Assembly: GCA_029582155.1 (NCBI GenBank)
Contig: CM055895.1
Coordinates: 6,692,544 to 6,756,543 of the forward strand
Source: Panopea generosa
Taxonomy: Eukaryota; Mollusca; Bivalvia; Adapedonta; Hiatellidae
Direction: 5' to 3'
Length of the DNA: 64,000 nt
The stretch's first letter is position 1. The number at the start of each line of letters is the position of its first letter. The notes under the pieces are model-generated. The model saw nothing but the letters and a program-made list of their open reading frames with translations, ran no database searches and was not told the DNA's origin. The position numbers were made by a program, and so were the translations under genes. Of this stretch, positions 8,739-52,500 are shown piece by piece.

Positions 8739-8857
8739 GTAAGTTAATTTTAACAAATCCGCAAACTAATCAAACACCAGACAAAGGAAAAAGCATGAAC
8801 TTATGCGTTGTTTGGCTCAATCTTCAAGTTTCCAATTTTATCTTCAACGCGTAGGTT

Positions 8858-19080: not shown

Positions 19081-19081
19081 T

Positions 19082-21997: not shown

Positions 21998-22206
21998 GGA
22001 AAAAAAACAAACCGCACCAAGCGTGATGGGACGTGCTGTCCTAAATTACGAAAGTGAATACAACAAATTGAATTTATTTGGTGACAAAGGTACGTCAATG
22101 CATTGTATTGTTCATATCCGTACACTAACCCTTATATACTTACACTAAAATAACCTCATGTCAACTTTAGCTTTGTTCTTTTTCAGGTACCTTCCGATAA
22201 TTCACG

Positions 22207-24874
22207 ATGTTAAAACAAACACTCGTATGCATAGTGTATATGCTGTTCAACATCAAAGGTGCTTACACGAATGGATGTAGCGGTAACGGTAGTTATACTT
22301 ACACGTTTACGAACATCACAATTGTCGACAATACGACTTTAATGGAGTGTCTAAATGCCAGCCGTGTCAACATATCACATAACAGAATCAACATACTGAG
22401 TAATGCCACGTTTAAAATGCATTATAATATTCACGTCCTTGACCTTAGTTTTAATGACATCGCTGATATTCCATCTGGCATGATGGGCACAATGCGATCT
22501 TTACAGGAACTATATATTACCGATAATAAACTCACAGCTTTGCCTCCGACTTTTTTTTATAACAAAAACAACCTCAAAGTGGTGGACATTTCTAACAATA
22601 ACATCAGTTATCTTCCCTTATCGATTTTCAACTACAGCATTTCTCAACTTGAACAAGTTATTATACGTAATAACAGCTTGACATATGTGGAACCGTGGGC
22701 AAACTTCAACCACCAGATCAAGTACATTGATGTGAGATATAATGATATCTCCAGTTTCACCAACAACGCCAACTGGACGTATCATGGCGCATCAATATAT
22801 GACGAGGTACGCCTATAAGAATTGTATTGAATAGTGTTGTAATATACTATCTATTATGGTTGGTCAATGTCGTCGACTATTGTCCGTAAGGGTTTACCTG
22901 GCACTTGTTAATCTTCGCTCATATGTTCGGGGCGTTTAAACGCCTTCTCTGTATGCGATATAATGCCGATTTAATAGTGTATTGGTATCGGTTTATTTAC
23001 AGTAATATGATACTGATAACATATTTACGTTCGGACACCGACAATTAATTTACGGATATACACCGGGAATATTCATGAATGCCAGGTAAATTCTAACGCA
23101 CAATATCAGCCATTATTGTTATTCTCAAGTTCTTTACAATAGGTTTCTAGCAAATATTATAACGGATGGTCCATGGCGTATCTGCGGCTGCCATCGCAAC
23201 CTTGTAATAGTCGTTCTCGTCTACCGTTATCTCTGCCGATCAATGTGTTGAGGTGTAAGCCACCCGATTTTTGTTCTTTACTTTGCATTAAAGAGGTGAA
23301 ACTTACATTTTATTGTTTGTCAACCTCTGCACTACCAAAATATGATGAAAAAAGTAGGGGTCATTTATCACGTAAGAGATTTTTTTTTCTGTTCAGTGAC
23401 AAATAAAGAAGACTTCATATTTTTTAACTCTATTTTGATTGTATATTTACAGGCGCTGACAGATTTACGGCACAACTCGTTCTACTACTGGAACGACACG
23501 TTCTTCATGCAGTACAAAGATCCATCACGTGATGTCGATATAGATACTATAATGTTGGAGATCGCTATGGATGTGCGGGAAAACAACTGGATGTGTGATT
23601 GTAAGTTCCACCACTTTGCTCTAAGGATTACTGAGTCCATGTACAAATGGAGCAACAGTGAATTACTTAACATTAAATGTTACGATCCGCCCAAACTTCG
23701 TGGCAAACGTGTATTTTTTGATATTCCACTTCAGCAATTTGTCTGTAATCTGACGGACAATTGTCCTGACGGATGTCTTTGCCAGGAGAGACCGCATGAT
23801 CAAGTTCTAAATATCGACTGCAGAGGGCAAAATTTGACTACGTTTCCGGACGTTGTTCCTAGCAGTAAATATGAAAAGATAACTATGCAATTAGATGACA
23901 ACAATATAGCCAGATTAAAGAACGTTAGCTATGCACATTCGATATACAGTTTGACGATGTCAAATAATGTACTTTCCTCTATCGACGGTCCTCTGATTGA
24001 AAACATAGCAAGTAAGGAAAAAGCCAGTATCGATTTCAGAAACAATGAATTGACTAGAATCCCCAAAGAGGTTCAGAATGTGAAATACCAGAACACAAAC
24101 TTCACAGGAAACAACCTCGTCTGTGACTGCGAAATGCTTTGGATGAAAGATTGGATAAATCTGGCACCACGGTATGAAGACAGAAATCTAAAATGCACAT
24201 TTGAAGGAAACTTTTATAAGATTCTTGATTTCGATGACAGCATTTTGAAATGTAGCGAGGTTGGTAGTATAGTTCTAATCGTTGTGCTAACAGTCGTGCT
24301 GTTTATCGTTATTGTTTTACTCGTTACCGCCAAGAGATGTCCATATGAAACCAAAGTTTTTCTGTACAAAATTTTCCGAATTCATCCGGCCGATAAATAT
24401 GTCGTCGATGGAAGCACTGACAAAGAATATGATATGTTTGTGTCGTTTGATGAAGATGATCCTTATGTCCGGCAATGGGTGAGACGAGTTCTTGTCAAGC
24501 AGTTAGAAGAAAAGAAACCCCATTATTCGCTAAGTATCGCTATACGAGATAGAAAAGCTGGTGCAGAAGCAGATGCCCGATCAGATTTGATTGAAAACAG
24601 CAGACGACTAATGATAATTCTATCAAAAGGTTACGCAAATCGAAGATGGTGTGATTACGATGCGTGCCAAGCTGAACTATTGGAAGACAATCAAGGACGT
24701 GTTGTATACGTTCTGTATGACACTGACGCCGAGGTACTGGTACAGAAAGAACCGTGGATGTCAAAAATTAAAGACAGGAAGGTTTTTACACTTGGCGAGA
24801 GAATGTTCTGGTCAAAGATACGATATGAACTCCCATCAAAACCTGTACGGTCAAACAAGCGTGCAATAATATGA
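22207..24874 (+). CDS. Toll-like receptor, protostome (multiple-cysteine-cluster) type, two coding exons
   Basis: CDS joins 22207-22806 and 23453-24874; the intron (GTACGC...TTTACAG) is phase 0, giving 673 aa. Acceptor TTTTTCAG at 22186 precedes the first ATG. In order: signal peptide (1-22), leucine-rich repeats (about 60-200, for example LDLSFNDIADIP), a first LRR C-terminal cap (NNWMCDCKF, about 244), an LRR N-terminal cap (CPDGCLCQ, about 302), more repeats, a second C-terminal cap (NNLVCDCEMLW, about 420), one membrane helix (about 470-495) and a TIR domain (about 525-660) with YDMFVSFDEDD, the BB-loop region RDRKAGAEAD and the box-3-like MFWSKIRYELP. The cap-repeat-cap ectodomain is the Drosophila Toll-like layout. 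It should be a surface or endosomal pattern-recognition or cytokine receptor signalling through TIR adaptors. The ectodomain is short for the family. The BB-loop proline is replaced by alanine. A polyadenylation signal AATAAA lies at 25033-25038. Confidence 0.93.
23265..23405 (-). repeat. Dispersed repeat fragment in the receptor coding intron
   Basis: The reverse complement (ATGACCCCTACTTTTTTCAT, then GTGCAGAGGTTGACAAACAA) matches copies at about 49420-49540, 59980-60070 and 63450-63500 (the last in this orientation). It is part of a dispersed element of about 370 bp. Confidence 0.7.
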
Positions 24875-27554: not shown

Positions 27555-29318
27555 GATTGTTCATTGTCATTCTGATGTGGTTACTTATCATTCGGCAGTG
27601 GTTATATGTCATTTGGCAATGTTTACTTGTCATTCGACAGTGATAACACATCGTTAGGCAGTGATAACGTGTACTTTGGCAGTGGTTACATGTCATTCGG
27701 AAGTGTTTACTTGTCATTCGACAATGATAACACATCGTTAGGCCATGGTAACGTGTTATTCGGCTGTGGTTACTTGTCATTCGGCAGTGGTACATGTCAT
27801 TCGGCAGTGGTTACTTGTCATTCGGCATTGGTTACATGCCATTCGGCAGTAGCTACATATCATTATGCAGTGGTTACCTGTCATTCGGCAGTGGTACCTT
27901 GTCATTCGGCAATGTTTACTTGACATTCGACAGTGATAACACTTCATTCAGCAGTGTCTACGTGTCATTCGGCAGTGGTTACACATCATTCGGCAGTGGC
28001 TACATATTATTCGGCATTGGCTTCGTGTCATTGGGCAGTGGCTACTTGTTACTCGGCAGTGGTTACTTGTTATTCAGCAGTGGTTACACATCATTCGGCA
28101 GTGGCTACGTATCATTCGGTAGTGGTTACTTGTTACTCGGCAGTGGTAACATTTCATTCGACAGTGGCTTAGTGTCATTTGACAGTGGTTAAAATGTTAC
28201 TCGTAAGTGGTAACACACCATTCGGCAGTGGCTACGTGTCCTTCGGTAGTGGTTTCTTGTTATTCGGCAGTGGTTATTTGTTATTCGGCAGTAGTTACAC
28301 ATCATTTGACAGTGGCTACGTGTCATTCGGCAGTGGTTACTTGTCATTCTACAGTGTTTACATATCATTCTGCAGTGGTTACACATCATTCGGCAGTGGT
28401 TATATGTAATTCTGCAGTGGTAACTTGTCATTTTGCAGTGGTTACACATCATTCGGCAGTGGTTATATGTAATTCTGCAGTGGTAACTTGTCATTCTGCA
28501 GTGGTTACACATCATTCGGCAGTGGTTTTATGTCATTCTGCAGTGGTAACAAGTTATTTGGCAGGGTTACACATCATTCGACAGTGATAATTTGTCATTC
28601 GCCAGTGGTTACACATCATTCGGCAGTGGTTACACATCATTCGGTAGTGGTTACTTGTCATTCGGTGGTGGTTACACATCATTCGACAGTAATAACTTGT
28701 CATTCGCCAGTGATTACACATCATTCGGCAATGGTTACTTGTCATTCGGCAGTGGTTACACATCATTCGGCAGTGGTTACTTGTCATTCGGCAGTGGTTA
28801 CACATCATTCAACAGTGATAACTTGTCATTCGCCAGTGGTTACACATCATTCGGCAGTGGTTACACATCATTCGACAGTGATTACTTGTCATTCGCCAGT
28901 GGTTGCATGCCACTCGGCAGTGGTTAATTGCTATTCGGCTATAGTTACTTGGCATTCATTAGGTAGTTGTTACACATCATTCGGCAGTGGTTACTTATTA
29001 TTTGGCAGTGGTAACATATCATTCGGCAGTGGTTACTTGTCATTCGGCAGTGGTTACATGGCATTCGGTAGTGGTAACCCATCATTCGACAGTGGCTACA
29101 TGGCATTCGGCAGTGGTTACCTATCATTCGGCAGTGATAACTTGTCATTCGGCAGTGGTTACATGTCATTCGGCAGTGGTTACTTATCATTCGGCAGTGG
29201 TTACTTATCATTCGGCAGCGATTACATGGTATTCGGCAGTGGTCACATGGCATTCGACAGTGGTTATCCATCATTCGGCAGTGGTTACCAAGCATTTGGC
29301 AGTGGTTACTTAATTGAC
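27555..29318. repeat. Minisatellite, 21-bp unit
   Basis: More than 70 tandem copies of a 21-bp unit built on TCATTCGGCAGTGGTTACA and variants (TTG or ACA at the junction). As seven codons it gives SFGSGYT or HSAVVTH in two plus frames and NHCRMTS-like repeats on the minus strand. All the long frames here are by-products. Confidence 0.93.
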
Positions 29319-29934: not shown

Positions 29935-30430
29935 ATCAAGGACTTGTATAAAAGGATAGGAAACTTACATCTCCTGACTAAATGTTGATGATTTCAACAG
30001 CACACGAAGGATTCATGCAAATTAATCATTCATAATTCACAGGCAACTGATTTCTTGTACAAAAACTGTAAGATGTATGTAATCTCAAATGTTTCAGTAA
30101 ACATGTTTCGATCACGCAAAATGCTCTTGAATCAAAGATATTGAGGTTTGAAGAAAAAATTATCGTATTGTAAATTATTTAAGCTGCAGTATACAAATTT
30201 TGTAATCACAACTACTTCAACAATTTTAAACACAAATTCCGGGAATGGTATTGTTTTAATGAAAATTTCATTCTGCAGTGTAAGAATTTTGATCTGTGTT
30301 CCTGAGATGAATGGTAGTTAAGATAATTGAAAACGAGATATTGTGAGATTTTGCGTGAATACGCGAGGGTTAACAAAATATCAATCAATTGCCTTTCCTT
30401 CTCTATATAATTCTGTGTATTCATATATAT
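29935..30430 (+). repeat. Dispersed repeat, also at 47.6-48.05 kb
   Basis: Shares CTCCTGACTAAATGTTGATG, GGGAATGGTATTGTTTT, TTCCTGAGATGAATGG and AACGAGATATTG in order with 47615-48055. Length is about 450-490 bp. No coding content is recognised. Confidence 0.75.
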
Positions 30431-30814
30431 TGAATATTTAGTCAGAACACCAATCCTACTGCAGTTTCGTCACCGTGTACCTTCTGTACAGTAAGTTTCA
30501 TTTGAATCAGCTTATAACTGTCAGAAGAGTTGTGTCCGCCGCAGGTTGTTGTGAAAGTGCATTTTAATAAGAAAGAGTCATAAATTTAGAAATTAAGTAC
30601 TTCTGTATACCACTTAAAAAGGCTCAAACCAGGAGCATTGCTATTAAACATGCAGTAATCGGACTTGATAAATCCCCTTTAAGGCAGTGCCTTATTTCAT
30701 GGCCTGTATGCAGATTAATGCGGCACGTTTGTAGGATTTACCAACGTCAGAGCGTTTAATGATTTGGATATCGTAAATCATAGCTGTTGGAATGCTTGTT
30801 TGTTGTTGATTTTG

Positions 30815-30823
30815 TCATATTAC
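30815..30823. other. Target-site duplication (left), TCATATTAC
   Basis: The nonamer TCATATTAC immediately precedes the GGGTCC terminus of the 12-kb element. The same nonamer immediately follows the opposite terminus at 43064-43072. Confidence 0.8.
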
Positions 30824-31808
30824 GGGTCCTACTAAATGCCACTAAGGACCACTAAGGACTACTAAGGACCACTAAGGACCACTAAGGAGTTCAAAGGGGG
30901 CACTAAGGACCACTATGGGGTTCAAAGGGGGCACTAAGGACCACTGAGGGGTTCAAAGGGAGCACTAAGGACTACTAAGGGGTTTCATATTAAGATTAAG
31001 ATTGTCAGTTAGCTGCAATGGACACATTTTAAGTGATTTAAATGATGACTCGGCATTAATAACCTGGATACAGATGAGTTTCTTCTATTAAACATGCTTG
31101 GTGTATAGTACCATCACATTGGCCCTTTGTTTAAAGTCCCATATGACAATTGTTAGTATATTTAATTGGCCAGCCCTGGGAGTCAAACCCGCAACCCCGA
31201 GACTAAAAGTCTGAGAACCACTAAGGACTACTAAGGAGTCACTAAGGACCACTAAGGAGTTCAAAGGGGGCACTAAGGACCACTAAGGGGTTCAAAGGGG
31301 GCACTAAGGGGTTCAAAGGGAGCACTAAGGACTACTAAGGGGTTTCATATTAAGATTAAGATTGTCAGTTAGCTACAATGGACACATTTTAAGTGATTTA
31401 AATGATGACTCGGCATTAATAACCTGGATACAGATGAGTTTTTTCTATTAAACATGCTTGGTGTATAGTACCATCATATTGGCCCTTTGTTTAAAGTCCC
31501 ATATGACAATTGTTAGTATATTTAGTTGGCCAGCCCTGGGAGTCAAACCCGCAACCCCGAGACTAAAAGTCTAAGAACCACTAAGGACTACTAAGGAGCC
31601 ACTAAGGACCACTAAGGAGTTCAAAGGGGGCACTAAGGACCACTAAGGGGTTCAAAGGGGGCACTAAGGACCACTAAGGGGTTCAAAGGGAGCACTAAGG
31701 ACCACTAAGGGGTTCAAAGGGAGCACTAAGGACTACTAAGGGGTTTCATATTAAGATTAAGATAGCTACAATGGACACATTTTAAGTGATTTAAATGATG
31801 ACTCAGCA
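30824..31808 (+). repeat. Left arm of the foldback element: ACTAAGG arrays plus SINE-like units
   Basis: Runs of CACTAAGGACTACTAAGG and GTTCAAAGGGGGCACTAAGG alternate with a non-array unit that runs from TTTCATATTAAGATTAAGAT to GCAACCCCGAGACTAAAAGT. Full units lie at about 30983-31215 and 31342-31575; a third (from about 31743) is split by the nested TTAA element. Confidence 0.85.
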
Positions 31809-32097
31809 TTAAAGGGGAACGCAACCCTGTGTATAAAACAGGATAATATGAATAGCTATGAGTTCAGCTTTCTATTAATAGTATTATTATGCATAAATTC
31901 GAGTCCATAAAGATATATCAGCTCGTTTTGTAACGGTCATTTTCGCACATCGACTTTATGGTGGAAGTCGCCATATTGGATACCTGCGTGACGTCATAAC
32001 TGCACTTCCGTTTAAAACATAATTGATTTATACGCTACAGCAGATGTAGAAACGTGCAATTATAGTCACCGGCAAAAGTACTCGCAAGACTAATAAA

Positions 32098-32369
32098 ATG
32101 GATTTTAGTAACGGAGAAGGACTTTTTGCCTACAACTTTGAACCAGAATTTTCAGAAGCAGAGTTAAATGAATTAGAAGACGAGAGAAATAGTGAGACGG
32201 CACAGTTGTTCACACACGTGAAAGATTTTTGCAGCTGCAAAAACAGTGTAATGATGCTTTCGTCTGACGAAAATACGTGCTGCAGATGCAATTTCACACT
32301 ATTGGAAATTCAGAAGATTTAGAATGTATCACAGAAATAATACAGAGATGTGACAGCAATGTCTTATGA
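32098..32369 (+). pseudogene. Fragment resembling the Cys-rich cytoplasmic (ballast) domain of P2X7
   Basis: The ATG at 32098 opens MDFSNGEGLFAYNFEPEFSE, then an acidic helix-like stretch (AELNELEDERNSE), then DFCSCKNSVMMLSSDENTCC. The order FEPE-S-EEL, C-C-x-M, E-x-CC is that of P2X7 intracellular-domain-like proteins, which are zinc-binding and expanded in molluscs and fish. The third cysteine of the first cluster is Ser here. The frame stops at 32322, but the next family block (ECITE) follows at once in another frame (32317-32369), so a frameshift has broken the gene. The remainder of the domain was not found. A SINE lies further down in the same element. I regard this as a decayed passenger of the TTAA element. 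Confidence 0.55.
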
Positions 32370-33537
32370 AGTTTTCACCCAAAAAGATGATAACTGTTAA
32401 ACAGTCACACCGATCATGAACCAGAGATCAAACCCGAAACCCATCAATCACAACTCTGACATCTTATCATGTAGCCTGACATTGATGATTGAATTTTTCA
32501 AAATAGTAAAATTACCCTTAGCTTGATAAAAAAAAGTAATTATTGCCGTCAGTGTTGATGTAGATCCAGACGAGCCTGCACATTCATGCTGTACTATCAG
32601 GGTTTATACTGTTTGCTACTCAGTCAATACATTATCAAAAAAAAACACTAATTAGACCAAGAATGGAATTAAGGGAAAATGTTTTGTTACATATATTTAC
32701 CTGTCTAAGAGAGAATAAGAAATAATATTATATCTCTTTTCTTATCGTGTTTAGCTGGTGCGGCCATTGTTGCGTACTGAGAAATGGCTGATAAAATTTT
32801 GATTTCATATCCTTTTTAGTAAATTTAGATGAAGCATGAATGAGTTGGGTTTTTTTTGTGTTGTTTTACGTAACTGGCACTGTCTTTTGGTTATTCAAAT
32901 GGTGTTACTACCCAATTTGATATATGATGATTATCTATTCTACCAGTTCTCTGAACATATATGAATGTGTCTCCTTATAGGGAGTGTCATATGGAATATA
33001 ATGTCTACAGGCATATTGCACAAAGTGTATGTTACTGTCCAGCTACTGGCACCCTGCTGAGCTTTCATAATTCACCAACACCACATTCACACCATGTGGT
33101 AATGAGAAATACCCTGCCACATTGTGCATATTGTACCCTAATAAGCGTGATCACCCCAGGTTTAATGACCCCAGGGTTTATGACAGGATGTTATATCACA
33201 CAGTATTATGCCTTATTACTAATTTAAACATTTTCAGTTAATTAGGGTTTCAATATTAATGCAAACTTACAAGTAAAAAAATTAAGTTATATGATTTTAT
33301 GAATATTTTTCATAAATTGTATACCAGAACACTATTTTAACAGTAAAAAAAACTTTTCATGTATTAATGAATAAATAAAGGAACAAAGGTTTTACTTTAT
33401 CTTTTTTCATTGCGAAGTTCAGGTAGTTCAAATGTCTATTCAAGAATAATGACCTAGTTGACTGTGAAAAAGCCATATATCAATAAACTAAATTGCCTAT
33501 TGATTATAAAATTAATAAAATGAGTTTATGAACAATT
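32370..33537. other. Interior of the TTAA element, no gene recognised
   Basis: AT-rich sequence. An open frame at 32961-33227 contains YRHIA, faintly like the YR-x-AYR block of P2X7-like proteins, but the rest does not fit and it is not called. Confidence 0.35.
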
Positions 33538-33828
33538 AATGGTTGACTGAATATTTAGCATCATTTTTTGTCATCGAGGGTTTACTGTTCAGATGTTCAG
33601 TTAACCTAACCACTGTTTCCTGCAAAGGTTAACCAGTACTCGAGCACACCCAACAACCGCAAGTAACTGATAATTTTACCACTCGAATCAGCCGTGAGAG
33701 ACAAATGATTTTAAGACACAATGTTGTATGTCAGTCATCACAGAGACTGTCGCCGGGTTGGGATTCGAACTCGAAACACCAGGATTGATAGTTAGACACG
33801 TAACTGACTGAGCTAATCGGGCCTGTCA
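33538..33828 (-). mobile_element. tRNA-derived SINE, copy 3, inside the TTAA element
   Basis: Same family as 15.8 kb, reversed: T-arm-like GGATTCGAACTCGAAAC, GGATTGATAG, TGACTGAGCTAATCGGGCC, and the body blocks TGTCATCGAGGGTTTAC and CGCAAGTAACTGATA. This gives a triple nesting: SINE in TTAA element in foldback element. Confidence 0.75.
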
Positions 33829-34764
33829 CAATTAATTGGCCTTAATTTGTATTTTAATAATAACTTTTAGATACCATGTCGTTTTCACACCTTATGTTTT
33901 GGCATTAACCTCTTGTTTTTATTGTTAATTGGATTATCACACCTGTTCAAACAGACTGCAATTATAATATTGTGAAAGTTTGCTATATCAATTTCGCAAT
34001 ATTTTGGAAGAGTATATAAAATTACAAATTAAATTTTAGAAATCAGCTGAGCTATATGTTATTAGCACATTTTTAAGAGCTTCCCACTGGATAATATACA
34101 CTAAGTTTATATGTATGTCGCATATGGTCATCTTCGTACTGAAATCATCAGAAATTGTATCCTAGGGTAGTAGTACGCCAAGGCATTGGAACGCTTCATT
34201 CTACAATCTTAAGTCCTACCCCAAAGTATAAAGGTGTTTTGCGCGTGATGTCACCAGAAGCTTGACACTGAGGCAATGTGAAATCACATATTAGGAAAAA
34301 TAAAAACAACGCTGCCCACAAAACATATCGCATTACTCCACTCACTTATTCCGCTGAAGAAAACAATATTTATGGTTAAATCCTTCAATTCAGAATAGTT
34401 TTCGCGTTTAATTGTCTTCCTTCGATGTTCACTAATGTACTGTTTATCTATCTATCAATTGTTTACGTGAATTAGTGTATATACAAAAGAGTATCAGTAG
34501 AGAGCAGTCACTAACGACACAATACAATTTGCGCGATAACTAGAACGGAAGTGCAGTTATGACGTCACCGAATACCTCCATCACAAAAGAGCTACAAAAT
34601 GGCGGCGCCCATAGCATTTAGGAAACGCTTGAAATCATGATATTTAATGTCATTTTTCTCATTTGATAAATTTCGTACAATTAAAATTTGTTGATTTTTG
34701 TGTTATTTACATGTCTATTTAACGATAAATAGCCATTTATATTCTGACGTGCGGTACCCTTTAA

Positions 34765-36240
34765 TCACCTGGATACAGATGAGTGTCTTCTATTGCATGC
34801 TTGGTGTATAGTACCATCACATGGGCCCTTTGTTTAAAGTCCCATATGACAGTTGTTAGTATATTTAGTTGGCCAGCCCTGGGAGTCAAACCCGCAACCC
34901 CGAGACTAAAAGTTTCGTGCTCTATAGACCGAACTGATGGGACTGTTCCTATTACAGACAAAAAAAAGGCACAAGGTACTGCAAAGGGTCACTAAGGGAT
35001 TAAAAGGGGACACTAAGTACTACTAAAGGGGTTCAAAGGAGTCACTAAGGACTACTAAGGAGTCTCTAAGGGGTTAACAGCTGGTACTAAGGACTACTAA
35101 GAAATTTTAGGGGGTAAAAAGCAGGCACGATAAAGTCTCTAAGGAGTAAAAGGGGGGCACTAAGGACTACTAAGGGGTTCGAAGAGGAGAGGCCATTAAG
35201 GACTACTAAGGAGTCTCTAAGGGGTTAAAAGGGGACACTAAGGAGTCTCTAAGGGATTAAAAGGGGCCACTAAGGAGTCTCTAATGGATTAAAAGGGGCC
35301 ACTACGGACTAATAAGGTGTCTCTAAGGGGTTAAAAGGGGCCATTAAGGACTAATAAGGGGTCTCTCAGGGGTTAAAAGGGGACACTAAGGAGTCTCTAA
35401 GGGATTAAAAGGGGCCACTAAGGACTACTAAGGAGTCTCTAAGGAATTAAAAGAGGCCACTAAGGACTACTAAGGGGTTCAAAGAGGCCACTAAGGACTA
35501 CTAAGGGGGCGCTAAGGAGTCTGTAAGCGGTTAAAGGCGGCACTAAGGAATACTAAGGAGTCTCTAAGGGGGTGCTAAGGAGTCTGTAAGGGGTTAAAGG
35601 GGGCACTAAGGACTACTAACGAGTCTCTTAGGGGGCACTTAGGAATCTGTAAGGGGTTTAAAGGGGACACTAAGGACTACTAACAAGTCTCTTAGAGGTT
35701 AAAATGGGGGGCACTAAGGAGTTAAAAGGGGTACTAAGGACTACTAAGGGGTTCAAAGAGGCCACTAAGGACTACTAAGTAGTCTATATGGGGTTAAAAG
35801 GGGGCAATAAGGAGTTAAAAGGGGCACTAAGGGATTCAAAGAGGCCACTAAGGACTACTAAGGAGTCTGTATGGGGTTAAAAGGGGGCACTAAGGAGTTG
35901 AAAGTGGGCACTAAGGACCACTTAGGAATTCAAAAGGAGCACCATCACATGGGCCCTTGGTTTAAAATCCCATCCAAATGATTGTTAATATTTTAAGTTG
36001 GCCAGCCCCGGGAGTAAAACCCGCAACCCCGAGACTAGAAATCTCATGCTCTATATACTCGGCTATTGGGACTGTTCTTATTACAGACAACAAAAAATCA
36101 ATAGGTACTGCAAAGGGGTCACTAAGGAGCCGCTAAGGGGTTAAAAGTGACACTAAGGGGTTCAAATGGGTCACTTAGGACAACTAAAGAGTCACTTAGG
36201 CATTTAAAGGGTTATTTAGGACTACTAAGGGGTCACTAAC
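34765..36240 (+). repeat. Continuation of the left foldback arm: array of CACTAAGGAGTCTCTAAGGG type
   Basis: Begins with the second half of the split SINE-like unit, including the fullest tRNA-Lys-like head (34870-34970). The reverse complement reads a D-arm-like CAGTTCGGTCTATAGAGCAC, an anticodon-arm-like ACTTTTAGTCTC and a T-arm-like GTTGCGGGTTTGACTCCC. An irregular array of TAAGGGGTTAAAAGGGG, CACTAAGGAGTCTCTAAGG and related words follows. A further SINE-like copy is at about 35940-36095. Confidence 0.85.
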
Positions 36241-36640
36241 AAAACGATCTGAGTAATAGTGACTGAACTTCATAAACTTAAAATTATATTATGTTATACA
36301 ATCAATGCATATGGCTAAGTTATTTAAGTTTCCATACATCTCCGTGAAAAATCATCGAACCGGAACAAAAAGATATTATGCAAATCTCCACTTGGTAGTG
36401 AAGCATCCTAGCAAGTAAATTCCAACCAGAGGTTGTAGAGAAATAGCCCGGACAAGAATTTGGTGTCGCACGCACGGACGAAGCGGCAACTATATGCTTC
36501 CCACCTTGGGGGGAGCATAAAAAAGTCTGGCCTTATTAAAATGTACATTTTTCTATGTAAAGCATACCAATTTCAATTAAATTACATTCATTCTTATTTT
36601 TCTGGGAGCCCATGTTGTTCAAACTAAAAATAGAATCACT
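36241..36640. other. Interior of the foldback element, dispersed repeat fragment
   Basis: Contains ATTATGCAAATCTCCACTTG, AGAGAAATAGCCCGG and CACCTTGGGGGGAGCATAAA, a combination I associate with bivalve dispersed repeats. No gene. Confidence 0.4.
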
Positions 36641-36654
36641 CTCAATCTCTTCAG

Positions 36655-37735
36655 AAGGACTTAATTAAGGTGTGATATGGGTCAGTGCTCTCAATATACA
36701 AGAATAACTGATAAAACAGTAGCAATCAGAAACTGTGCATTCACACTCCAGGGGTCAGATGTCACTATTGTGAAATCATGAAATCATTTTTAGTGCAGCA
36801 TTCTTCCTTTATAAAGTAGTGACTTAATTAAGGTGAGATATGGGTCAGTGCTCTCAATATACCAGAATAACTTATAAAACAGTAGCAATCAGAAACTGTG
36901 CATTCACACTCCAGGGTCAGATGTCACTATTGTGAAATCATGAAATCATTTTTAGTGCAGCATTCTTCCTTTATAAGGTAGTGACTTAATTAAGGTGAGA
37001 TATGGGTCAGTGCTCTCAATATACCAGAATAACTTATAAAACAGTCGCAGCCAGAAACTGTGTATTCACACTCCAGGGGTCATGTGGCACTATTGTGAAA
37101 TCATTTTTAGTGCAGCATTCTTCCTTTATAAGGTAGTGACTTAATTAAGGTGTGATATGGGTCAGTGCTCTCAATATACCAGAATAACTGATAAAACAGT
37201 AGCAGTCAGAAACTGGGTATTCACACTCCAGGGGTCAGGTGTCACTATTGTGAAATCATTTTTAGTACAGTATTCTTCCTTTATAAGGTAGTGACTTAAT
37301 TAAGGTGAGATATGGGTCAGTGCTCTCAATATACCAGAATAACTGATAAAACAGTAGCAATCAGAAACTGTGTATTCACATTCCAGGGGTCATGTGTCAC
37401 TATTGTGAAATCATTTTTAGTGCAGCATTCTTCCTTTATAAGGTAGTGACTTAATTAAGGTGTGATATGGGTCAGTGCTCTCAATATACCAGAATAACTG
37501 ATAAAACAGTAGCAGTCAGAAACTGTGTATTCACACTCCAGGGGTCAGGTGTCACTATTGTGAAATCATTTTTAGTGCAGTGTTCTTCTTTTATAAGGTA
37601 GTGACTTAATTAAGGTGTGATATGGGTCAGTGCTCTCAATATACCAGAATAGCTGATAAAACAGTAGCAGTCAGAAACTGTGTATTCACACTCCAGGGGT
37701 CAGGTGTCACTATTGTAAAATAATGAAATCATTAT
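36655..37735. repeat. Tandem repeat, about 155-165-bp unit, seven copies
   Basis: Each copy starts near GACTTAATTAAGGTGAGATA and holds GGGTCAGTGCTCTCAATATA, AAACAGTAGCAATCAGAAAC, CACTCCAGGGGTCA and ATTCTTCCTTTATAAGGTAG. Copies start near 36657, 36821, 36983, 37136, 37291, 37446 and 37601. A diverged single copy is at 38855-38955. Confidence 0.9.
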
Positions 37736-39780
37736 TTTGTGTGTATAAGTTTTTATTTATCCTCGCACTTTGAACAAGTCATTTTGGCGAGCAGGATAGG
37801 ATGATTATTAAAAATTAAAATATGATTACACATTTCTGTGATGATTAATGTGTGATGAATGGAGATGATTCACATAATAAGTCGTGTCTATATTCAACTT
37901 TGAAGTTTGTTATTAACTGAGTTGTTTAATACTACAACTATTTTATATTTTTGGATTCGGTGCTTACTAATTACTAACATTGTTTATACTCATGATATTT
38001 TTAAATTTGTAGATTGACGACCAAAGTGTAGATTAATCGACTAAGAATATTATTATTTCTTTTTGTATTTACCGATTGCAGCCATATATTACTTATTAGT
38101 GCATGTAATTGATTAATTTAAATAAGGTGCACATATGGTTGTTCACCAATATTTTAAGTTGAACAACGCTGCTCATAGCGCAAATTGCTTTGCTTATAAC
38201 GTCAGCGATATTCAACCTAACTATAAACCTTAGATAAAAATTTAATTCCATCCAAGGTGTTATCTGAACACATTAATTGTGTGTGGTTACAATGGTAAAA
38301 TATATGTACTTATCTTATGTAACCATGTATCCAGCGTACCACCAATAATTGTCAATAGTAAACCATCAACAAACTATGGTGTGCCGTAAAACCGTAAAAC
38401 CCAAATCATCGTGTTTGATGGTATAAATGAACTGACCTAAATGGTTTGGCTGCAATGGAATTTATGGGATGTGTCTTATTTTTGTACATATTTTAAATGT
38501 CACAGCTACTTATCATGCTATTTGTTTATATTTGTAGTATCAGCTGAAGAGGGTATTACCCATCAGCATATCGCACTTTATTTAAAAGCTGACCAGTCAC
38601 TGTTAATCGTACCATTCTGCATCAATAATGGTAAAGAATGGTTTAAGAGTGTGTTAAAATAAATTGACGTTAAACTGTGAAATGTGTATAATAGGGCACC
38701 CAGCAGCTCGCGCATACCTTAAAAGTGCCAATAATAAAAAATATTTTAAGAAATCAGATATCATCTCAGATCAGATCTGAAATGAACTGATTAACAGTAA
38801 CTGGTCCCAAATATTTAAAATAAAAAATAGTCTTGTGTAACTCTATACTGAATACAGTGCTCTCAATACACCAGTATAACTGTTAAAACAGTAGCAGTTG
38901 GTAGTTGGTAACTGTATTTACACTCCAGGGGGTCACTATTGTGAAATCATTTTGTATGTATGTACAAGTATTTCTTTACCCTCGCTCTTTGAACTAAGTC
39001 ATTTTGGCAAGCCGAATGAGATGATTATTTAAAAATATAAGATGATTATTTAAAGTTGATGATGATGATTACCATTTGATTGTTTACTTTGGAGTTTAAG
39101 TATTTATTATTTTATTATGTATATAGTAGTTTAGTTTCAATTGCTAATATTTAAGAAGAATTGGTATGAGACTTTCTTTGATGACTAAAAATTGACGATT
39201 TATTGTTAAGACTTGAATTATTTTACTCTGCCTTGTGCAGCCAAATGAGGAGTTAAACAGTGTTGTTTAGTGTTATTATGGTAGTTTACTATATGTAATA
39301 CCTATATCTTAGGCCAGACAATTTTTCTTAAAGGGCAAATAAATTTGCTAATGGTATCAAAAGTATCCCTTTGCACACTAATTGTGCTTAGTTGTTATGG
39401 TAAAATTTTATTTGTAAGACAGTATCGCTAGCAACCATGTATACCACATACAAACAGTAATTGTCAATATAAGATATCAACAAACTAGAGTATGCCGTAA
39501 AACCCGTAACAATATTATTTTTGTTGCTGGTATTGTAGGTGACTTCAGGGTTTTCATTTTAAAATAAAACAACAGATTGAAAGAGAAAAACAACAGACTA
39601 GGCCGAGTTTAAGGGGGCGAATGTTCGATGTTTCTGGAAAAACAATCGATCTAAACCTGATTTTAACTGATGTTTCAATCGGCGATCAGTTAAAAATGAA
39701 AACCCTGTGACTTAAAATGAATGTGGCTGCACAGGTATCTAAATTTAAGTGAACGGGGTTTAATATATTAGTCTGTTTGA
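37736..39780. repeat. Duplicated unit of about 700 bp inside the foldback element
   Basis: 37736-38400 and 38955-39510 are diverged direct copies. Both carry CTTTGAAC(A/T)AAGTCATTTTGGC, a GATGATTATT block, and TGCCGTAAAACC near their ends. Between them, 38441-38662 holds a 73-residue open frame of unclear meaning. No transposase motif is seen. Confidence 0.6.
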
Positions 39781-39794
39781 GAGTAAGTAAGTGT

Positions 39795-42700
39795 CACTTT
39801 GAACTCCTTAGAGGCTCCTTAGTGGTCCTGAGTGACCCCTTTGAACCCCTTAGTAGTCCTTAGTGCATGTTTGAACTCCTCAGATGCTTCTTAGTGGTCC
39901 TTAGTGGCACTTTGAACTCATAAGTGTCTCCTTTGTACCCCTCTGAACACCTAAGAGGCTCCTTTGAGGTCCTTAGTGGCACTTTGAACTTATAAGTGGC
40001 TCCTAAGTGTCCCTTTGAACACATAAAAGGCTCCTTTGAGGTCCTAAGTGCCATTTAGAACTCATTCATGGCTCCTTAGTGCCCCTTTGAACTCCTTAGT
40101 GGTCCTTAGTGACACTTTGAACTCATTCGTGGCTCCTTAGTGCCCATTTGAACTCCTTATAGGCTCCTAAATAGTCCTGAGTGGCATTTTGAACTCATTA
40201 GAGGCTCCTTAGTGTCCATCTGAACTCCTTAGAGGCTCCTTAGTAGTCCTTAGTGGCACTTTGAACTCATTAGTGGCTCCTTAGTGTCCATCTGAACTCC
40301 TTAGAGGCTCCTTAGTAGTCCTTAGTGGCACTTTGAACTCATTAGTGACTCCTTAGTGCCCAATTGAACTCCTTAGAGGCTCCTTAGTAGTCCTTAGTGG
40401 CACTTTGAACTCATTTTTGAACTCCTTAGTGCCCATTTGAACTCCTTAGAGGCTCCTAAGTAGTCCTTAGTGGCACTTTGAACTCATTTTTGAACTCCTT
40501 AGTGGCTCCTTAGTGCCCATTTGAAGTGCCCATTTAAACTCCTTAGAGGCTCCTAAGTAGTCCTTAGTGGCACTTTGAACTCATTTTTGAACTCCTTAGT
40601 GGCTCCTTAGTGCCCATTTGAACTCCTTAGAGGCTCCTAAGTAGTCCTTAGTGGCACTTTGAACTCATTTTGAACTCCTTAGTGGCTCCTTAGTGCCCAT
40701 TTGAACTCCTTAGAGGCTCCTAAGTAGTCCTTAGTGGCACTTTGAACTCATTTTGAACTCCTTAGTGGCTCCTTAGTGCCCATTTGAACTCCTTAGAGGC
40801 TCCTAAGTAGTCCTTAGTGGCACTTTGAACTCATTTTTGAACTCCTTAGTGGCTCCTTAGTGCCCATTTGAACTCCTTAGAGGCTCCTAAGTAGTCCTTA
40901 GTGGCACTTTGAACTCATTTTTGAACTCCTTAGTGGCTCCTTAGTGCCCATTTGAACTCCTTAGAGGCTCCTAAGTAGTCCTTAGTGGCACTTTGAACTC
41001 ATTTTGAACTCCTTAGTGGCTCCTTAGTGCCCATTTGAACTCCTTAGAGGCTCCTTAGTAGTCCTTAGTTGCACTTTGTACTCATAAGTGGCTCCTAAGT
41101 GTCCCTTTAAACTCCTTAGAGGGTCTGTAGCTGTCCCTAATGGCATGTTGAACTCATTAGTGGCACTTTGAACTTCTAAGAGGCTCCTTAGTGGCACTTT
41201 GAACTCCTAAGTTGCTCCTTAATGCCCCTTTAAACTCCTTAGAAGAGGCTCCTTAGTGGCACTATGAACTCCTAAGTGGCTCCTTAATGCCCCTTTCAAC
41301 TCCTTAGAAGAGGCTCCTTAGTGGCACTATGGACTCCTAAGTGGCTCCTTACTGCCCCTTTGAACTCCTTAGAGGCTCCTTAGTGCCCCCTGTAACTCCT
41401 TAGTGATCCTTAGTGTCCCCTTTGAAGCTGTTAGTAGTCCTTAGTGCCGCTTTGAACTCCTTAGTGGTCCTAAGTGCCCCCTTTGAAGCTGTTAGTAGTC
41501 CTTAGTGCCGCTTTGAACTCCTTAGTGGTCCTTAGTGCCCCCTTTGAACCCCTTAGTGGTCCTTAGTGCCCCCTTTGAACTCCTTAGTGGTCCTTAGTGG
41601 CTCCTTAGTAGTCCTTAGTAGTCTTAAGACTTTTAGTCTCGGGGTTGCGGGTTCGACTCCCAGGGCTGGCCAACTAAATATACTAACAATTGTCATATGG
41701 GACTTTAAACAAAGGGCCAATGTGATGGTACTATACACCAAGCATGTTTAATAGAAGAAACTCATCTGTATCCAGGTGATTAATGCCGAGTCATCATTTA
41801 AATCACTTAAAATGTGTCCATTGTAGCTAACTGACAATCTTAATCTTAATATGAAACCCCTTAGTAGTCCTTAGTGCTCCCTTTGAACCCCTTAGTGGTC
41901 CTTAGTGCTCCCTTTGAACCCCTTAGTGGTCCTTAGTGCCCCCTTTGAACTTCTTAGTGTTCCTTAGTGGCTCCTTAGTAGTCCTTAGTAGTCCTAAGAC
42001 TTTTAGTCTCGGGGTTGGGGGTTTGACTCCCAGGGCTGGCCAACTAAATATACTAACAATTGTCATATGGGACTTTAAACAAAGGGCCCATGTGATGGTA
42101 CTATACACCAAGCATGCTTAATAGAAGAAACTCATCTGTATCCAGGTTATTAATGCCGAGTCATCATTTAAATCACTTAAAATGTGTCCATTGTAGCTAA
42201 CTGACAATCTTAATCTTAATATGAAACCCCTTAGTAGTCCTTAGTGCTCCCTTTGAACCCCTTAGTGGTCCTTAGTGCCCCCTTTGAACTCCTTAGTGGT
42301 CCTTAGTGGCTCCTTAGTAGTCCTTAGTGGTTCTTAGACTTTTAGTCTCGGGGTTGCAGGTTTGACTCCCAGGGCTGGCCAACTTAATATACTAACAATT
42401 GTCATATGGGACTTTAAACAAAGGGCCAATGTGATGGTACTATACACCAAGCATGTTTAATAGAAGAAACTCATCTGTATCCAGGTTATTAATGCCGAGT
42501 CATCATTTAAATCACTTAAAATGTGTCCATTGTAGCTAACTGACAATCTTAATCTTAATATGAAACCCCTTAGTAGTCCTTATTGCTCCCTTTGAACCCC
42601 TTAGTGGTCCTTAGTGCCCCCTTTGAATCCCTTAGTGGTCCTTAGTGCCCCCTTTGAACTCCTTAGTGGTCCTTAGTGGCTCCTTAGTAGTCCTTAGTGG

Positions 42701-43063
42701 TTCTTAGACTTTTAGTCTCGGGGTTGCAGGTTTGACTCCCAGGGCTGTCCAACTTAATATACTAACAATTGTCATATGGGACTTTAAACAAAGGGCCAAT
42801 GTGATGGTACTATACACCAAGCATGCTTAATAGAAGAAACTCATCTGTATCCAGGTTATTAATGCCGAGTCATCATTTAAATCACTTAAAATGTGTCCAT
42901 TGTAGCTAACTGACTATCTTAATCTTAATATGAAACCCCTTAGTAGTCCTTAGTGCCCCCTTTGAACCCCTTAGTGGTCCTTAGTGCCCCCTTTGAACTC
43001 CTTAGTGGTCCTTAGTGGTCCTTAGTAGTCCTTAGTGGTCCTTAGTGGCATTTAGTAGGACCC
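39795..43063 (-). repeat. Right arm of the foldback element: inverted arrays plus four SINE-like units
   Basis: The inner part (39795-41620) is an array of CTTAGTGGCTCCTTAGTGCC and TTTGAACTCCTTAGAGGCTC; within 40410-41040 a higher-order unit of about 85-90 bp is repeated about seven times. The outer part has four near-identical units starting at the tRNA-Lys-like ACTTTTAGTCTCGGGGTTGC at about 41632, 42000, 42340 and 42709, separated by CCCCTTAGTGGTCCTTAGTG arrays. It ends CATTTAGTAGGACCC at 43063. Confidence 0.88.
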
Positions 43064-43072
43064 TCATATTAC
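43064..43072. other. Target-site duplication (right), TCATATTAC
   Basis: An exact copy of the nonamer at 30815-30823, abutting the ...AGGACCC end of the element. Confidence 0.8.
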
Positions 43073-43083
43073 TGTTCAGTAAT

Positions 43084-43680
43084 GATGCCATTCTTTACAT
43101 GGTTGAAAATTTTTTAGACTGGCACTATTAGGTATGACCAGTATATATTCTGTTAAATATCTATATAGTATTCTATATATATATATAAAATATATTTTGT
43201 CACTAGCCCTTTTGTTGTCACTAGCCCTACATATATACCGTACGTTGACGCAGTCACACTTGACCAAAAAAGATGTGAATGGACATTTTTACTTATTTAA
43301 AATAAATTGCGATTGTCTAGTGGTTATATACTGCGTATAGATCTTTATTTTTTTTCTTCCATTACTTCCAGCATTTCATTTTCTGATTATTATGGTGTGT
43401 TTTTTTTTTACTTTTTATAGACTTCTACAGAATATATATACAGTATACCTAATACCGCGATATACCTATTACCGCGAATGCCCGTATAAAAACAGTCTGG
43501 GAAGACATGCACAAAGCTCCAACTTCCTTTAGCGTCGGCATTTGTTTACATTTCGTATCGGCAACTGTTTATTACTCAGCATACTTGAGTAACCTTATTG
43601 CTGTTTATTATTGACGCCATTCTTTACATGGTTGAAAAAAAATTTGGACTCGCAGTATTAGGTATGACCAGTATATATGC
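43084..43680. repeat. Direct repeat pair, about 70 bp, 530 bp apart
   Basis: GCCATTCTTTACATGGTTGA...TTAGGTATGACCAGTATATA occurs at about 43087-43150 and again at about 43617-43678. Between them is AT-rich sequence with GTCACTAGCCCTTTTGTT repeated in tandem. It lies just right of the foldback element. No coding content. Confidence 0.65.
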
Positions 43681-44149
43681 ATAATTATAGCAAACGAAGA
43701 GAATATATTAAAAATTAATTTTATATATATTTTTACAACACAGAATATTTTTCAAATGATATTTCGATTAATGCACACTTCTAAAATATTTTTTAAAGGA
43801 GTTCTATTTAATTATAGTTTAATTGTAACAATTCTACTTATTTAATGAAAATGTGTTTGTTAATTGTGTGAAGTTTGTTGTTTGTTTGGTGTTTTACATG
43901 CTAATTAATAATGAGTGAAAGATGACACTCAAATCAAGCATGGCACACGCTGCAAACTTATTGATTTGACATCATTCTTATGCTCAATTAACATGATGTG
44001 TGATTTCAGTCATGTGTGACTTAGACATCATTTTGTAAAGAAATATCATAAATAATAAATGTATATAAAGATATCCTGATATCCTATTGTGTATCCTTTG
44101 TATAACTATTTAGTTTACCTCACAACCATAATCTTATATAAGGGGCGAA

Positions 44150-47400: not shown

Positions 47401-50400
47401 TTACCAGTATATGTACTCAAACACATCTATCTCCACAAGTAACTGATGGCTTGAATCAATTGTGAAAGACAAATGACAACAAGACACAGTGTCATATATC
47501 ATTTATCACAGAGACTGTGGCCAGGCTAAGATTCAAACTTAAGACATGTTACCGATTGTGCTAACTGGGCCCCGTCAATTGATAACAATAACATGTCACT
47601 GTAATATGATTGGTTACATCAAGGACCTATATGGAGAAAGGTAGGAAACTTGCATCTCCTGACTAAATGTTGATGATATTATAATTCATACTTCACTGGC
47701 AACTGATATCTTGTACATAAAATGTAAGTTATAAATGTAATTCCAAATGTTTTAAATGTTTTGATCAGGCAAAATGATCATGAATTAAAACTATTGAGGT
47801 TTAAAGTAAAATTTCTCTTAGTTTTTATTTTGGTTGGAGTATACACATTTCAAACCATAAGTACTTCAAGAATTTTAAACACAAATTGCTGGGAATGGTA
47901 TTGTTTTGATGAGAATTTCATTTTGCCATGTAAGAGTTTTGATTTGTGTTCCTGAGATGAATGGAAGTTAAGATAATTAAAAACGAGATATTGCGAGATT
48001 TTGCATGAATATGCGAGCATTCACAATATATCAATCCTGTCCTTTTCTTTATAATTCCTAAATTACATGCAGGATTTTAATATTTAGACCGCGTACATGT
48101 TAGATTTAGACTGTGTATATGTAAATTTAGACTGTGTACATGTTAGATTTAGACTGTGTACATGTTAGATTTAGACTGTGTACATGTTAGATTTAGACTG
48201 TGTACATGTAGATTAAGACTGTGTACATGTTAGATTTAGACTGTGTACATGTTAGATTTAGACTGTGTACATGTAGATTTAGACTGTGTACATGTTAGAT
48301 TTAGACTGTGTACATGTTAGATTTAGACTGTGTACATGTAGATTTAGACTCTGTACATGATAGATTTAGACTGTGTACATGTTAGATTAAGACTGTGTAC
48401 ATGTTAGATTTAGACTGTGTACATGTTAGATTTAGACTGTGTACATGTAAGATTTAGACTGTGTACATGTAGATTTAGACTGTGTACATGATAGATTTAG
48501 ACTGTGTACATGTTAGATTTAGACTGTGTACATGTAGATTTAGACTGTGTACATGTTAGATTTAGACTGAACATGTTAGATTAAGACTGTGTACATGTAG
48601 ATTTAGACTGTGTACATGTTAGATTTAGACTGTGTACATGTTAGATTTAGACTGTGTACATGTAGATTTAGACTCTGTACATGATAGCTTTAGACTGTGT
48701 ACATGTTAGATTTAGACTGTGTACATGTTAGATTTAGACTGTGTACATGTTAGATTTAGACTATGTACATGTTAGATTTAGACTGTGTACATGTAGATTT
48801 AGACTGTGTACATGATAAATTTAGACTGTGTACATGATAGATTTAGACTGTGTACATATTAGATTTAGACTGTGTACATGATAGATTTAGACTGTGTACA
48901 TGATAGATTTAGACAGTGTACATGTTAGATTTAGACTGTGTACATGATAGATTTAGACTGTGTACATGATAGATTTAGACTGTGTACATGTAGATTTAGA
49001 CTGTGTACATGTTAGATTTAGACTGTGTACATGTTAGATTTAGACTGTGTACATGTTAGATTTAGACTGTGTACATGTAGATTTAGACTCTGTACATGAT
49101 AGATTTAGACTGTGTACATGTTAAATTTAGACTCTGTACAGGCATAGTACCTACATTGCAAAAATGAAGTGCTTCTGTGGGGTAGTCGCATAAGGGTGGT
49201 TATATATAATCCTCATTTCTTCTTTAAAAATGCATTTTCCTTATTTTAATGCTCATTTTTTTTATTTGAATGGGATTATTGATGTATTTTGAACATTTTG
49301 CTAGCATTGTGTTGTTTGAATTGTGAATTTAGAAAAACAATTGATGCTTGGAAATTGGGGTATGAATTCATGATTTCAGAAGTCTACTTTCATTTTGTCA
49401 CCAGTGTACACACTGGGCATAAAAAAATCTCTTAAATGACACATGACCCCTACTTTTCTCATCATATTTTGATAGTGCAGAGGTTGACAAACAGTAAAAT
49501 GTAGGTTTCACTTCTTTCATTTGGGATTCTCTATGAATGACAAGCCTTCAAACTAATATTATTTACTATAGAATAAAGAACAAAAATCAATGGTGGGTTT
49601 ACACCTACATGTAGAATTAGGCTGTGTACATGTTAGATTTAGACTGTGTACATATAGATTTAGACTATGTACATGTAGATTTAGACTGTGTACATGTTAG
49701 ATTTAGACTGTGTACATGTTAGCTTTATACTGTGTACATGTAGATTTAGCCTGTGTACATGTAGATTTAGACTGTGCACATGTTAGATTTAGACTTTGTA
49801 CATGCAGGTTTAGACTGTGCACATGTATATTTAGGCTGTGTACATGTTAGATTTAGATAGTGCACATGTAGATTTAGACTGTGTATATGTTATATTTAGA
49901 CTGTGTACATGTAGATTTAGACTGTGTACATGTAGATTTAGACTGTGTACATGTAGATTTAGACTGTATACATGTTAGACTTTGACTGTGTACATGTTCG
50001 ATATAGACTGTGTATATGTTATATTTAGACTGTGTACATGTAGATTTAGACTGTGTTCATGTAGATTTAGACTGTATACATGTTAGACTTTGACTGTGTA
50101 CATGTTCGATATAGACTGTGTATATGTTATATTTAGACTGTGTGCATGTTAGATTTAGACTGTGTACATGTAGATTTAGACTTTGTATTTGTTATATTTA
50201 GACTGTGTACATGTTAGATTTAGACTGTACATGCTAGAGTTATACTGTGTACAAATAGATTGCTCTGTGTCAAGAAAGATGGTATTTCTGTAACAAATAC
50301 TTATTTATGTGGAAACTTCAAACCTTTAAATGAGACTGATTAAAAGTTACCGTTAAACACTTTCAAAACAATGCCAATGTGAACATGACAGATTTGAAAC

Positions 50401-50929: not shown

Positions 50930-52500
50930 TGTATTCAAGATCAAGCCATGTATGTTTACATGTGCATAATGAAGATCAAGTCATATGTGTGTACATGCAA
51001 GGCTGTCATTAGAAGCTGGGGGCCAGATTTCTCCCCCTGGCTATTCTTACTTGAACACTTGGCTATATTCAACTGAGTTTCTTCCATTTGTTTTTAGGAG
51101 GACCCCAAGACTCCCCTTCTGCTTTTTCCTTTCACACTTCTACTTCAAAACTTGATGAAAACCCTGAACATGTGTATAATGAAGATCAAGTCATATGTGT
51201 GCACATGTGTATAATAAAGATCAAGTCATATGTGTACATGTGCATAATGAAGATCAAGTCATATGTGTACATGTGCATAATGAAGATCAAGTCATGTGTA
51301 TATGTGTATAATGAAGATCAAGCCATATGTGTGCACATGTGTATAATGAAGATCAAGTCATATGTGTGTGTGCATGTGCAGAATGAAGATCAAGTCATAT
51401 GTGCGTGTACATGTGTATAATGAAGATCAAATCATATGTGTGTACATGTGTATAATGAAGATCAAGTCATATGTGTGTACATGTGAAAAATGAAAATCAA
51501 GTCATATGTGTGTGTACATGTGCATAATGAAGATCAAGTCATATGTATGTACATGTGCATAATGAAGATCAAGTCATATGTGTACATGTGAATAATGAAG
51601 ATCAAGTCATATGTGTACATGTGAATAATGAAGATAAGGTCAGGTCATATGTGTACATGTGCATAATGAAGATCAAGTCATATGTGTACATGTGCATAAT
51701 AAAGATCAAGTCACAGTGTACATATGAATAATGAATATCAAGTTATGTGTGTACATGTGCATAATGAATATCACGTCATGTGTACACGTGTATAATGAAG
51801 ATCAAGTCATATGTGTGTATACATGTACATAATGAAGATGAAATCATATAAATGTACATGTGCAAAATGAAGATTAATTCATTTGTGTGTGTACATGTGC
51901 ATAATGAAGATCAAGTCATATGTGTACATGTACACAATGAAGATCAAGTCACAGTGTACATGTGAATAATGATTATCAAGTCATGTGTGTACATGTGCAT
52001 AATGAAGATCAAGTCATGTGTGCCGTGTGCATAATGAAGATCAAGTCATGTGTGTACATGTGCATAATGGAGATCAAGTCATGTTTGCATACACATGCAT
52101 AATGGAGATCAAGTCATATGTACATGAGCATAATGGAGATCAAGTCATATGTACATGTGCATAATGGAGATCAAGTCATATGTACATGTGCATAATGAAG
52201 ATCAAGTCATATGTACATGTGCATAATGAAGATCAAGTCATAAGTACATGTGCATAATGGAGATCAAGTCATGTTTGCATACACATGCATAATGGAGATC
52301 AAGTCATGTGTACATGTGCATAATGGAGATCAAGTCATGTTTGCATACACATGCATAATGGAGATCAAGTCATATGTACATGAGCATAATGGAGATCAAG
52401 TCATATGTACATGTGCATAATGGAGATCAAGTCATATGTACATGTGCATAATGAAGATCAAGTCATATGTACATGTGCATAATGGAAATCAAGATAATGA
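50930..52500. repeat. Minisatellite, about 33-bp unit, 3' of the Josephin gene
   Basis: Tandem copies of ACATGTGCATAATGAAGATC followed by AAGTCATATGTGT. It begins about 50 bp after the AATAAA, is interrupted at 51000-51165 by other sequence, and shortens to a GGAGATCAAGTCATATGT type towards 52.5 kb. Open frames inside (51088-51731) are artefacts. Confidence 0.92.

Follow-up and report, generated by a model that had tools for sequence, protein, structure and literature searches.

Several DNA transposons that carry tandem repeats in their inverted termini have been described, and against them we compare a 12,240-bp element of the bivalve Panopea generosa. Without its flanking 9-bp duplication, the element spans positions 30824–43063 of a 64,000-nucleotide stretch of contig CM055895.1 (assembly GCA_029582155.1, positions 6,692,544 to 6,756,543 of the forward strand), which is referred to as the window and to which all coordinates apply. 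An original prediction, made from the sequence alone, had proposed a foldback-type transposon of 12.24 kb at this location and held that no element with such a build had been described. The size agrees with our borders; the claim of novelty fails, as Muta1, Tm1, Tetris, Rehavkus and Drosophila FB are all on record in the accounts cited below. The overall build is thus already known, and it is the tRNA-like piece within the repeat stacks, together with a nested element, that marks this case. We consider the locus to be most likely a non-autonomous bivalve foldback DNA transposon, mobilised in trans by a DDE transposase of a Mutator-like element (MULE) of the Rehavkus/Phantom type made elsewhere in the genome.

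Rehavkus, used as an outgroup to MULEs, is listed with a 9-bp duplication, a minisatellite, one open reading frame (ORF) and terminal inverted repeats (TIRs) of 26–400 bp, with Arthropoda and Annelida as hosts (PMC6446971). Rehavkus-1_TC of Tribolium measures 9.5 kb, and its inverted termini contain satellite with a 164-bp monomer, mostly in 5 and 8 copies (PMC10218199). The 9-bp duplication and the satellite in inverted termini are found in P. generosa as well, but the sections of these two accounts used here do not mention a tRNA-like segment for Rehavkus, as is present in the arms of our element (PMC6446971; PMC10218199). Muta1 of Aedes aegypti is an active MULE and type 2 foldback element that generates 8–9-bp duplications and transposes in yeast; the autonomous element of 3,198 bp has 145-bp TIRs with nine copies of a 12-bp subterminal repeat, and short subterminal tandem repeats are reported for 10 of the 12 long-TIR MULE families of Aedes (PMC5225508). 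The likeness to Muta1, whose non-autonomous derivatives are described as varying internally (PMC5225508), lies in the tandem subterminal TIR repeats and the length of the duplication; the difference lies in the arms, which here are kilobases long. Tm1 of Meloidogyne (Mutator/Foldback) encodes a Phantom-type transposase, has 9-bp duplications on most copies, and shows composite TIRs of one to nine units of a ~14-bp motif, the number differing between the ends (PMC3169594). Our element shares the 9-bp duplication and the short-repeat TIRs of unequal number at the two ends, whereas Tm1 has short arms and a known transposase-encoding member (PMC3169594).

Tetris of Drosophila virilis is a non-autonomous foldback element with 8–10-bp duplications, whose ~220-bp TIR units seed satellite arrays (PMC4079207). 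It is similar to the present element in its tandem TIR units, in an apparent lack of autonomy and in a range of duplication lengths that includes 9 bp; the unit is a different one, however, and no module of minisatellite plus tRNA-like segment is mentioned for Tetris in the parts of that account drawn on here. Drosophila FB elements (FB4/FB-NOF) at two inversion breakpoints have ends that are at least 97% alike, with mirrored blocks of 27–31-bp repeats around a variable middle and an unequal number of blocks between the arms (PMC7642927). This layout is like that of the present element. As far as the descriptions, rather than the sequences, can be compared, the FB blocks are separated by a single CTC and those of P. 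generosa by tRNA-like segments of 228 bp. For Mollusca, MULEs as such are listed (PMC6446971; PMC10294476), some with TIRs (48 and 296 bp) and others lacking them (PMC6446971), and bivalve genomes are reported to contain both MULE and Kolobok elements (PMC10294476). We found no mollusc case of a satellite-armed foldback element among the titles and abstract openings that searches of open-licence papers returned; the present locus extends this type of transposon to a bivalve.

The borders of the element are sharply defined. The 9-bp target-site duplication TCATATTAC is present on both sides (30815–30823 and 43064–43072, plus strand, 9/9 identical) and directly adjoins both termini, which are exact inverted copies of each other, as the original prediction had it, and are identical over 92 bp. 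Beyond these 92 bp the termini stay alike: up to the first module there are 3 substitutions in 128 aligned positions, and the right end is shorter than the left by approximately one 31-bp unit. The terminal 17-mer GGGTCCTACTAAATGCC has two exact occurrences within the window, one per strand, and these are confined to the two ends of the element (30824–30840 and 43047–43063); the same 17-mer was found in 0 stretches of viral contigs. Sequences outside the duplication are unlike each other on the two sides, which argues for an insertion and not for a palindromic join.

We also considered that an ordinary satellite array had been inverted by a palindromic rearrangement or by an assembly join, the latter named in the original prediction as one possible refutation, with the 9-bp match arising by chance. 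Tandem arrays are indeed frequent in the window (112 rows in Tandem Repeats Finder (TRF), overlaps included), the copy number of satellites may be mis-assembled, and exact inverted 24-mers are common elsewhere too, with 158 position pairs that do not lie wholly inside the element. The evidential weight is therefore carried by the duplication and the unique terminus. From base composition, two given places would share a 9-mer with a probability of ~8e-6; for position pairs drawn at random from the window, which is rich in repeats, the figure is 7.7e-5. Together with the terminal 17-mer found at the two ends only, the unlike flanks and the absence of similar satellite elsewhere in the window (BLAST, 1e-5), these odds (8e-6 to 8e-5) led us to discard an assembly join or a chance duplication, and we regard this explanation as extremely improbable. 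The foldback anatomy and the duplication support a mobile-element insertion.

Both arms consist of inverted minisatellite based on ACTAAGG, with periods of 10, 21 and 31 bp and a higher-order unit of 339–370 bp (TRF), where the original prediction had given 350-bp units. Each higher-order unit, or module, combines minisatellite with a ~228-bp tRNA-like segment. The outer left arm (30824–31812, plus strand) comprises the terminal sequence, ACTAAGG minisatellite in units of 10, 21 and 31 bp with a 360-bp higher-order unit, modules L1 and L2 and the first third of L3. The inner left arm (34765–36240, plus strand) contains the remainder of L3, with a longer tRNA-like segment, followed by diverged satellite and an old module L4 (about 35938–36187). 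On the other side, the inner right arm (39797–41490, minus strand) is diverged satellite with periods of 31, 72 and 83 bp (TRF and alignment), and the outer right arm (41491–43063, minus strand) consists of modules R4 to R1 and the terminal sequence, as defined by TRF, alignment and module comparison. The outer modules thus number three on the left and four on the right, so that the arms are long inverted arrays of tandem repeats in unequal number. With these arms and the duplication at both ends, the foldback label rests on tested anatomy.

The outer arms are far more alike than the inner ones, as had been proposed. Positions 30842–31812 pair in inverted orientation with 42707–41780 at 91.5%, and 30872–31745 with 42337–41455 at 94.5%, whereas the inner arrays pair at about 66–74%. 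With the left arm joined across the nested element, the mean identity of the outer modules (L1–L3 and R1–R4; range 96–99%) was 97.52% within arms (9 pairs) and 97.50% between arms (12 pairs). The closest pair, R1 and R2 (98.7%), has variants in common, as would be expected from a recent tandem duplication; L3 has a variant in common with R3 and another with R4, as would be expected from its position in an inherited TIR. The variant CTCTAAGG occurs 8 and 14 times in the left and right inner arrays, respectively, versus 0 and 0 times in the outer arrays. As it is common to both inner arrays, inheritance of the inverted arrays in the form of a TIR seems likely. Since the inner arrays also carry arm-specific variants, they look like two sides of a single old TIR, each amplified separately at a later time. 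The contrast between outer and inner parts fits end homogenisation, with similarity maintained at the outer ends and lost by drift further in. A BLAST comparison at 1e-5 gave no similar satellite in the rest of the window, and a satellite 20-mer was found in 0 stretches of viral contigs and 0 of genome contigs. In this locus a transposon arm serves as a nursery for satellite DNA. Separately, the first 8 bases of TCATATTAC (30815–30822) also lie within all seven outer modules and at four further places in the window, an overlap with the modules that is probably due to chance and possibly to target preference.

The same gradient could be read as a composite unit, in which an old foldback core acquired new outer ends at a later time, or in which two shorter foldback elements move together. 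The contrast between outer modules (96–99% alike) and inner arrays (about 66–74%, with arm-specific variants) would suit such a unit, as would the presence of other repeats in the centre, namely a 155-bp array. The arms are collinear, however, each with outer modules followed by older satellite that has the CTCTAAGG variant in common, and the element is without an internal copy of GGGTCCTACTAAATGCC. We therefore consider a composite origin very unlikely.

The segment within the modules had been described as a tRNA-Lys-like SINE (short interspersed nuclear element) head, of which the resemblance to tRNA-Lys stood. Read in reverse, that is outward from the element, the segment corresponds to the anticodon and T arms of tRNA-Lys. 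Aligned to a tRNA-Lys sequence, the segments tested, in four of the eight modules (L1, L3, L4, and R2), scored 39–49, versus 13–16 on the opposite strand, and in each of these 0 of 1000 shuffles reached the score. The alignment extends further into the 5' half of the tRNA in the inner L3 and L4 than in the outer L1 and R2. ARAGORN did not call the segment as a tRNA in the whole window, Rfam at E ≤ 10 gave no tRNA match on two stretches, and a scan of the window at the Rfam gathering threshold gave 0 matches, so that the segment is at best a degenerate tRNA derivative. No copies outside the element were found in the window at E 1e-5. One could imagine that the arms grew by amplification of a composite unit of 10/21/31-bp minisatellite and a captured tRNA-derived SINE segment, all facing outward, which would yield a TIR with many B-boxes of the RNA polymerase III type. 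Inter-arm conversion would then keep the outer modules alike, and the tRNA-like segment may have been selected, for instance because it marks a boundary or pauses replication and thereby promotes exchange between the arms; we regard this scenario as unlikely.

The centre of the element (36241–39796) contains a 155-bp tandem array (36658–37721, 6.8 copies, TRF), with a partial copy at 38855–39080 that has a similar downstream flank. This array may resemble the satellite-bearing Helentron derivatives of oysters. A six-frame Pfam scan with X at stops gave no match at E ≤ 1 for 31745–36640; for 36641–39800 the only matches were below the curated cut-off (best PF24573, E 2.7e-4), none of them a transposase. 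An interior that encodes the mobilizing transposase was therefore rejected for the scanned 31745–39800, and as far as scanned the element appears to be non-autonomous.

With respect to mobilization, the duplication of 9 bp falls within the 8–11 bp range of MULEs (PMC6446971; PMC5225508), and duplication length and architecture together point to MULE-like mobilization as the likeliest source, as the original prediction had suggested. The transposase would recognize the terminal sequence, and the repeated subterminal satellite would serve as multiple binding sites; in Galileo, tandem repeats of the TIR can carry extra transposase binding sites (PMC3688188). The enzyme would excise the 12.2-kb unit and insert it with a 9-bp stagger. 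Slippage and unequal exchange would alter the number of modules, and pairing of the arms, through a hairpin or sister-chromatid conversion, would preserve the likeness of the outer modules; the inner arrays, no longer in exchange, would drift.

A different DDE superfamily (P/Galileo-like, hAT, Merlin or an unknown one) might have moved an element of the same foldback anatomy and left a 9-bp duplication, which we judge rather unlikely. Duplications of hAT and P elements are 8 bp long and those of Galileo 7 bp, and these lengths do not fit. The duplication here is exactly 9 bp, the length listed for many MULE groups (PMC6446971). Such a transposase would nevertheless be compatible with the lack of any transposase match in the scanned 31745–39800, and with the convergence of foldback arms across superfamilies, which also weighs against a MULE, as do the further points gathered here. 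Galileo has a P-type transposase (PMC3688188; PMC3169594), so that the foldback form by itself is no proof of a MULE (PMC3688188); Drosophila FB is labeled 'P element-related' (PMC7642927), and the Tetris account assigns most foldback elements to Mutator, but with exceptions (PMC4079207). When the terminal 17-mer is aligned to the satellite, its score is at chance level (equalled by 104 of 2000 shuffles), and the case for a derivation of these 17 bp from a degenerate satellite unit is weak. Moreover, the inner arrays contain arm-specific variants, which indicate that each was amplified on its own: TTAAAAG (13 left, 0 right), GAGTCTCTAAGG (6 left, 0 right) and GAGCCTCTAAGG (0 left, 13 right). 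Finally, an amplification of all outer modules shortly before the last jump would mimic homogenization.

The inverted arms of the original prediction were confirmed, but it had overlooked that the left arm is interrupted by a Kolobok-type element with a SINE-like repeat. Module L3 stops at 31812 and restarts at 34765, and the intervening 2,948 bp (31813–34760) start with AGGGGAACGCA and finish with the inverse of AGGGTACCGCA (AGGGG... / ...ACCCT; 9 of 11 positions alike), flanked by TTAA at 31809–31812 and 34761–34764 (plus strand). A TTAA duplication with 5'-RR...YY-3' ends is the signature of Kolobok elements (PMC9587614; PMC6004289), and both features are present here. A perfect 25-bp subterminal inverted repeat (31988–32012 / 34544–34568) contains TGACGTCA. 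When the first 60 bp of the nested element are aligned with the inverse of its last 60 bp, the best local match is a subterminal stretch of 15 bp and not the termini, which indicates that the TIR is short. Joined without the nested element, the left-arm flanks read GACTCAGCATTAATCACCTGG, and R4 in the right arm has the uninterrupted counterpart GACTCGGCATTAATCACCTGG at 41772–41792. The ends, the TTAA duplication and this counterpart show that 31813–34760 was inserted, and we reject both an origin as arm sequence and the capture of a host gene. The two arms form an internal control: as the right arm keeps the pre-insertion state of the module that is split in the left arm, the order of events can be read without a second genome.

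Within the nested element, a broken coding piece (32095–32319, plus strand) resembles KolX, a protein with a P2X7 ballast fold encoded by the Kol0 lineage of Kolobok (PMC9587614). Two database proteins, from the sources jgi and ena, match it (97% identity over 99% of the query, and 94% over 65%), and when the piece is read through its breaks, with X at each, the protein P0013 is retrieved (49% identity, 78% of the query, E 4e-12). As P0013 matches the Pfam family P2RX7_C (PF20478, P2X7 cytoplasmic ballast) at 1.2e-6, with 29 bits versus a cut-off of 23.5, we assign the piece as KolX-like. Counting against this assignment, the frame from the window itself gave only an unrelated sub-threshold match in Pfam (DUF835, E 0.042–0.066), and a comparison with PDB sequences gave no P2X7 match; the best PDB match, WD repeat protein 3 (E 0.85, 0.79, and 0.016), was taken as spurious. 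For the same piece, 27 stretches in genome contigs fitted a pattern (0 confirmed), as did one stretch in viral contigs (not confirmed). With regard to Kol0 traits, the KolX-like piece is thus broken, and no transposase was found in the nested element by the Pfam scan. The SINE-like repeat (33541–33827) is flanked by the 9-bp ACAATTAAT at 33532–33540 and 33828–33836 and has relatives in the window at 15803–16088, 6850–7161, and 47413–47539 (71–78%). Nesting at this locus thus has three levels, with a SINE-like repeat within a Kolobok-type element within a foldback arm.

In the surroundings of the element, the right flank (43067–43198) has a 74% paralogue at 43596–43733, the similarity starting inside the 9-bp duplication, and no counterpart of the left flank was seen beside this paralogue. 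A stretch of the left flank (30324–30441) is 77% similar to 47974–48087, which adjoins the start of another tandem array. Other long minisatellite arrays lie at 8853–10716, 19079–20731, 27565–29309, 48082–50261, 51168–52493, and 61278–62367 (TRF); several of these contain long open frames, which probably stem from the repeat period. Pieces of a Toll-like receptor gene are present at 22201–24874. Residues 330–524 of its ORF at 23300–24874 point to a heterodont bivalve as the probable host: their best match is at 70%, and among named matches Ruditapes philippinarum ranks first (64%), ahead of Mactra antiquata (59%) and Dreissena polymorpha (52%).

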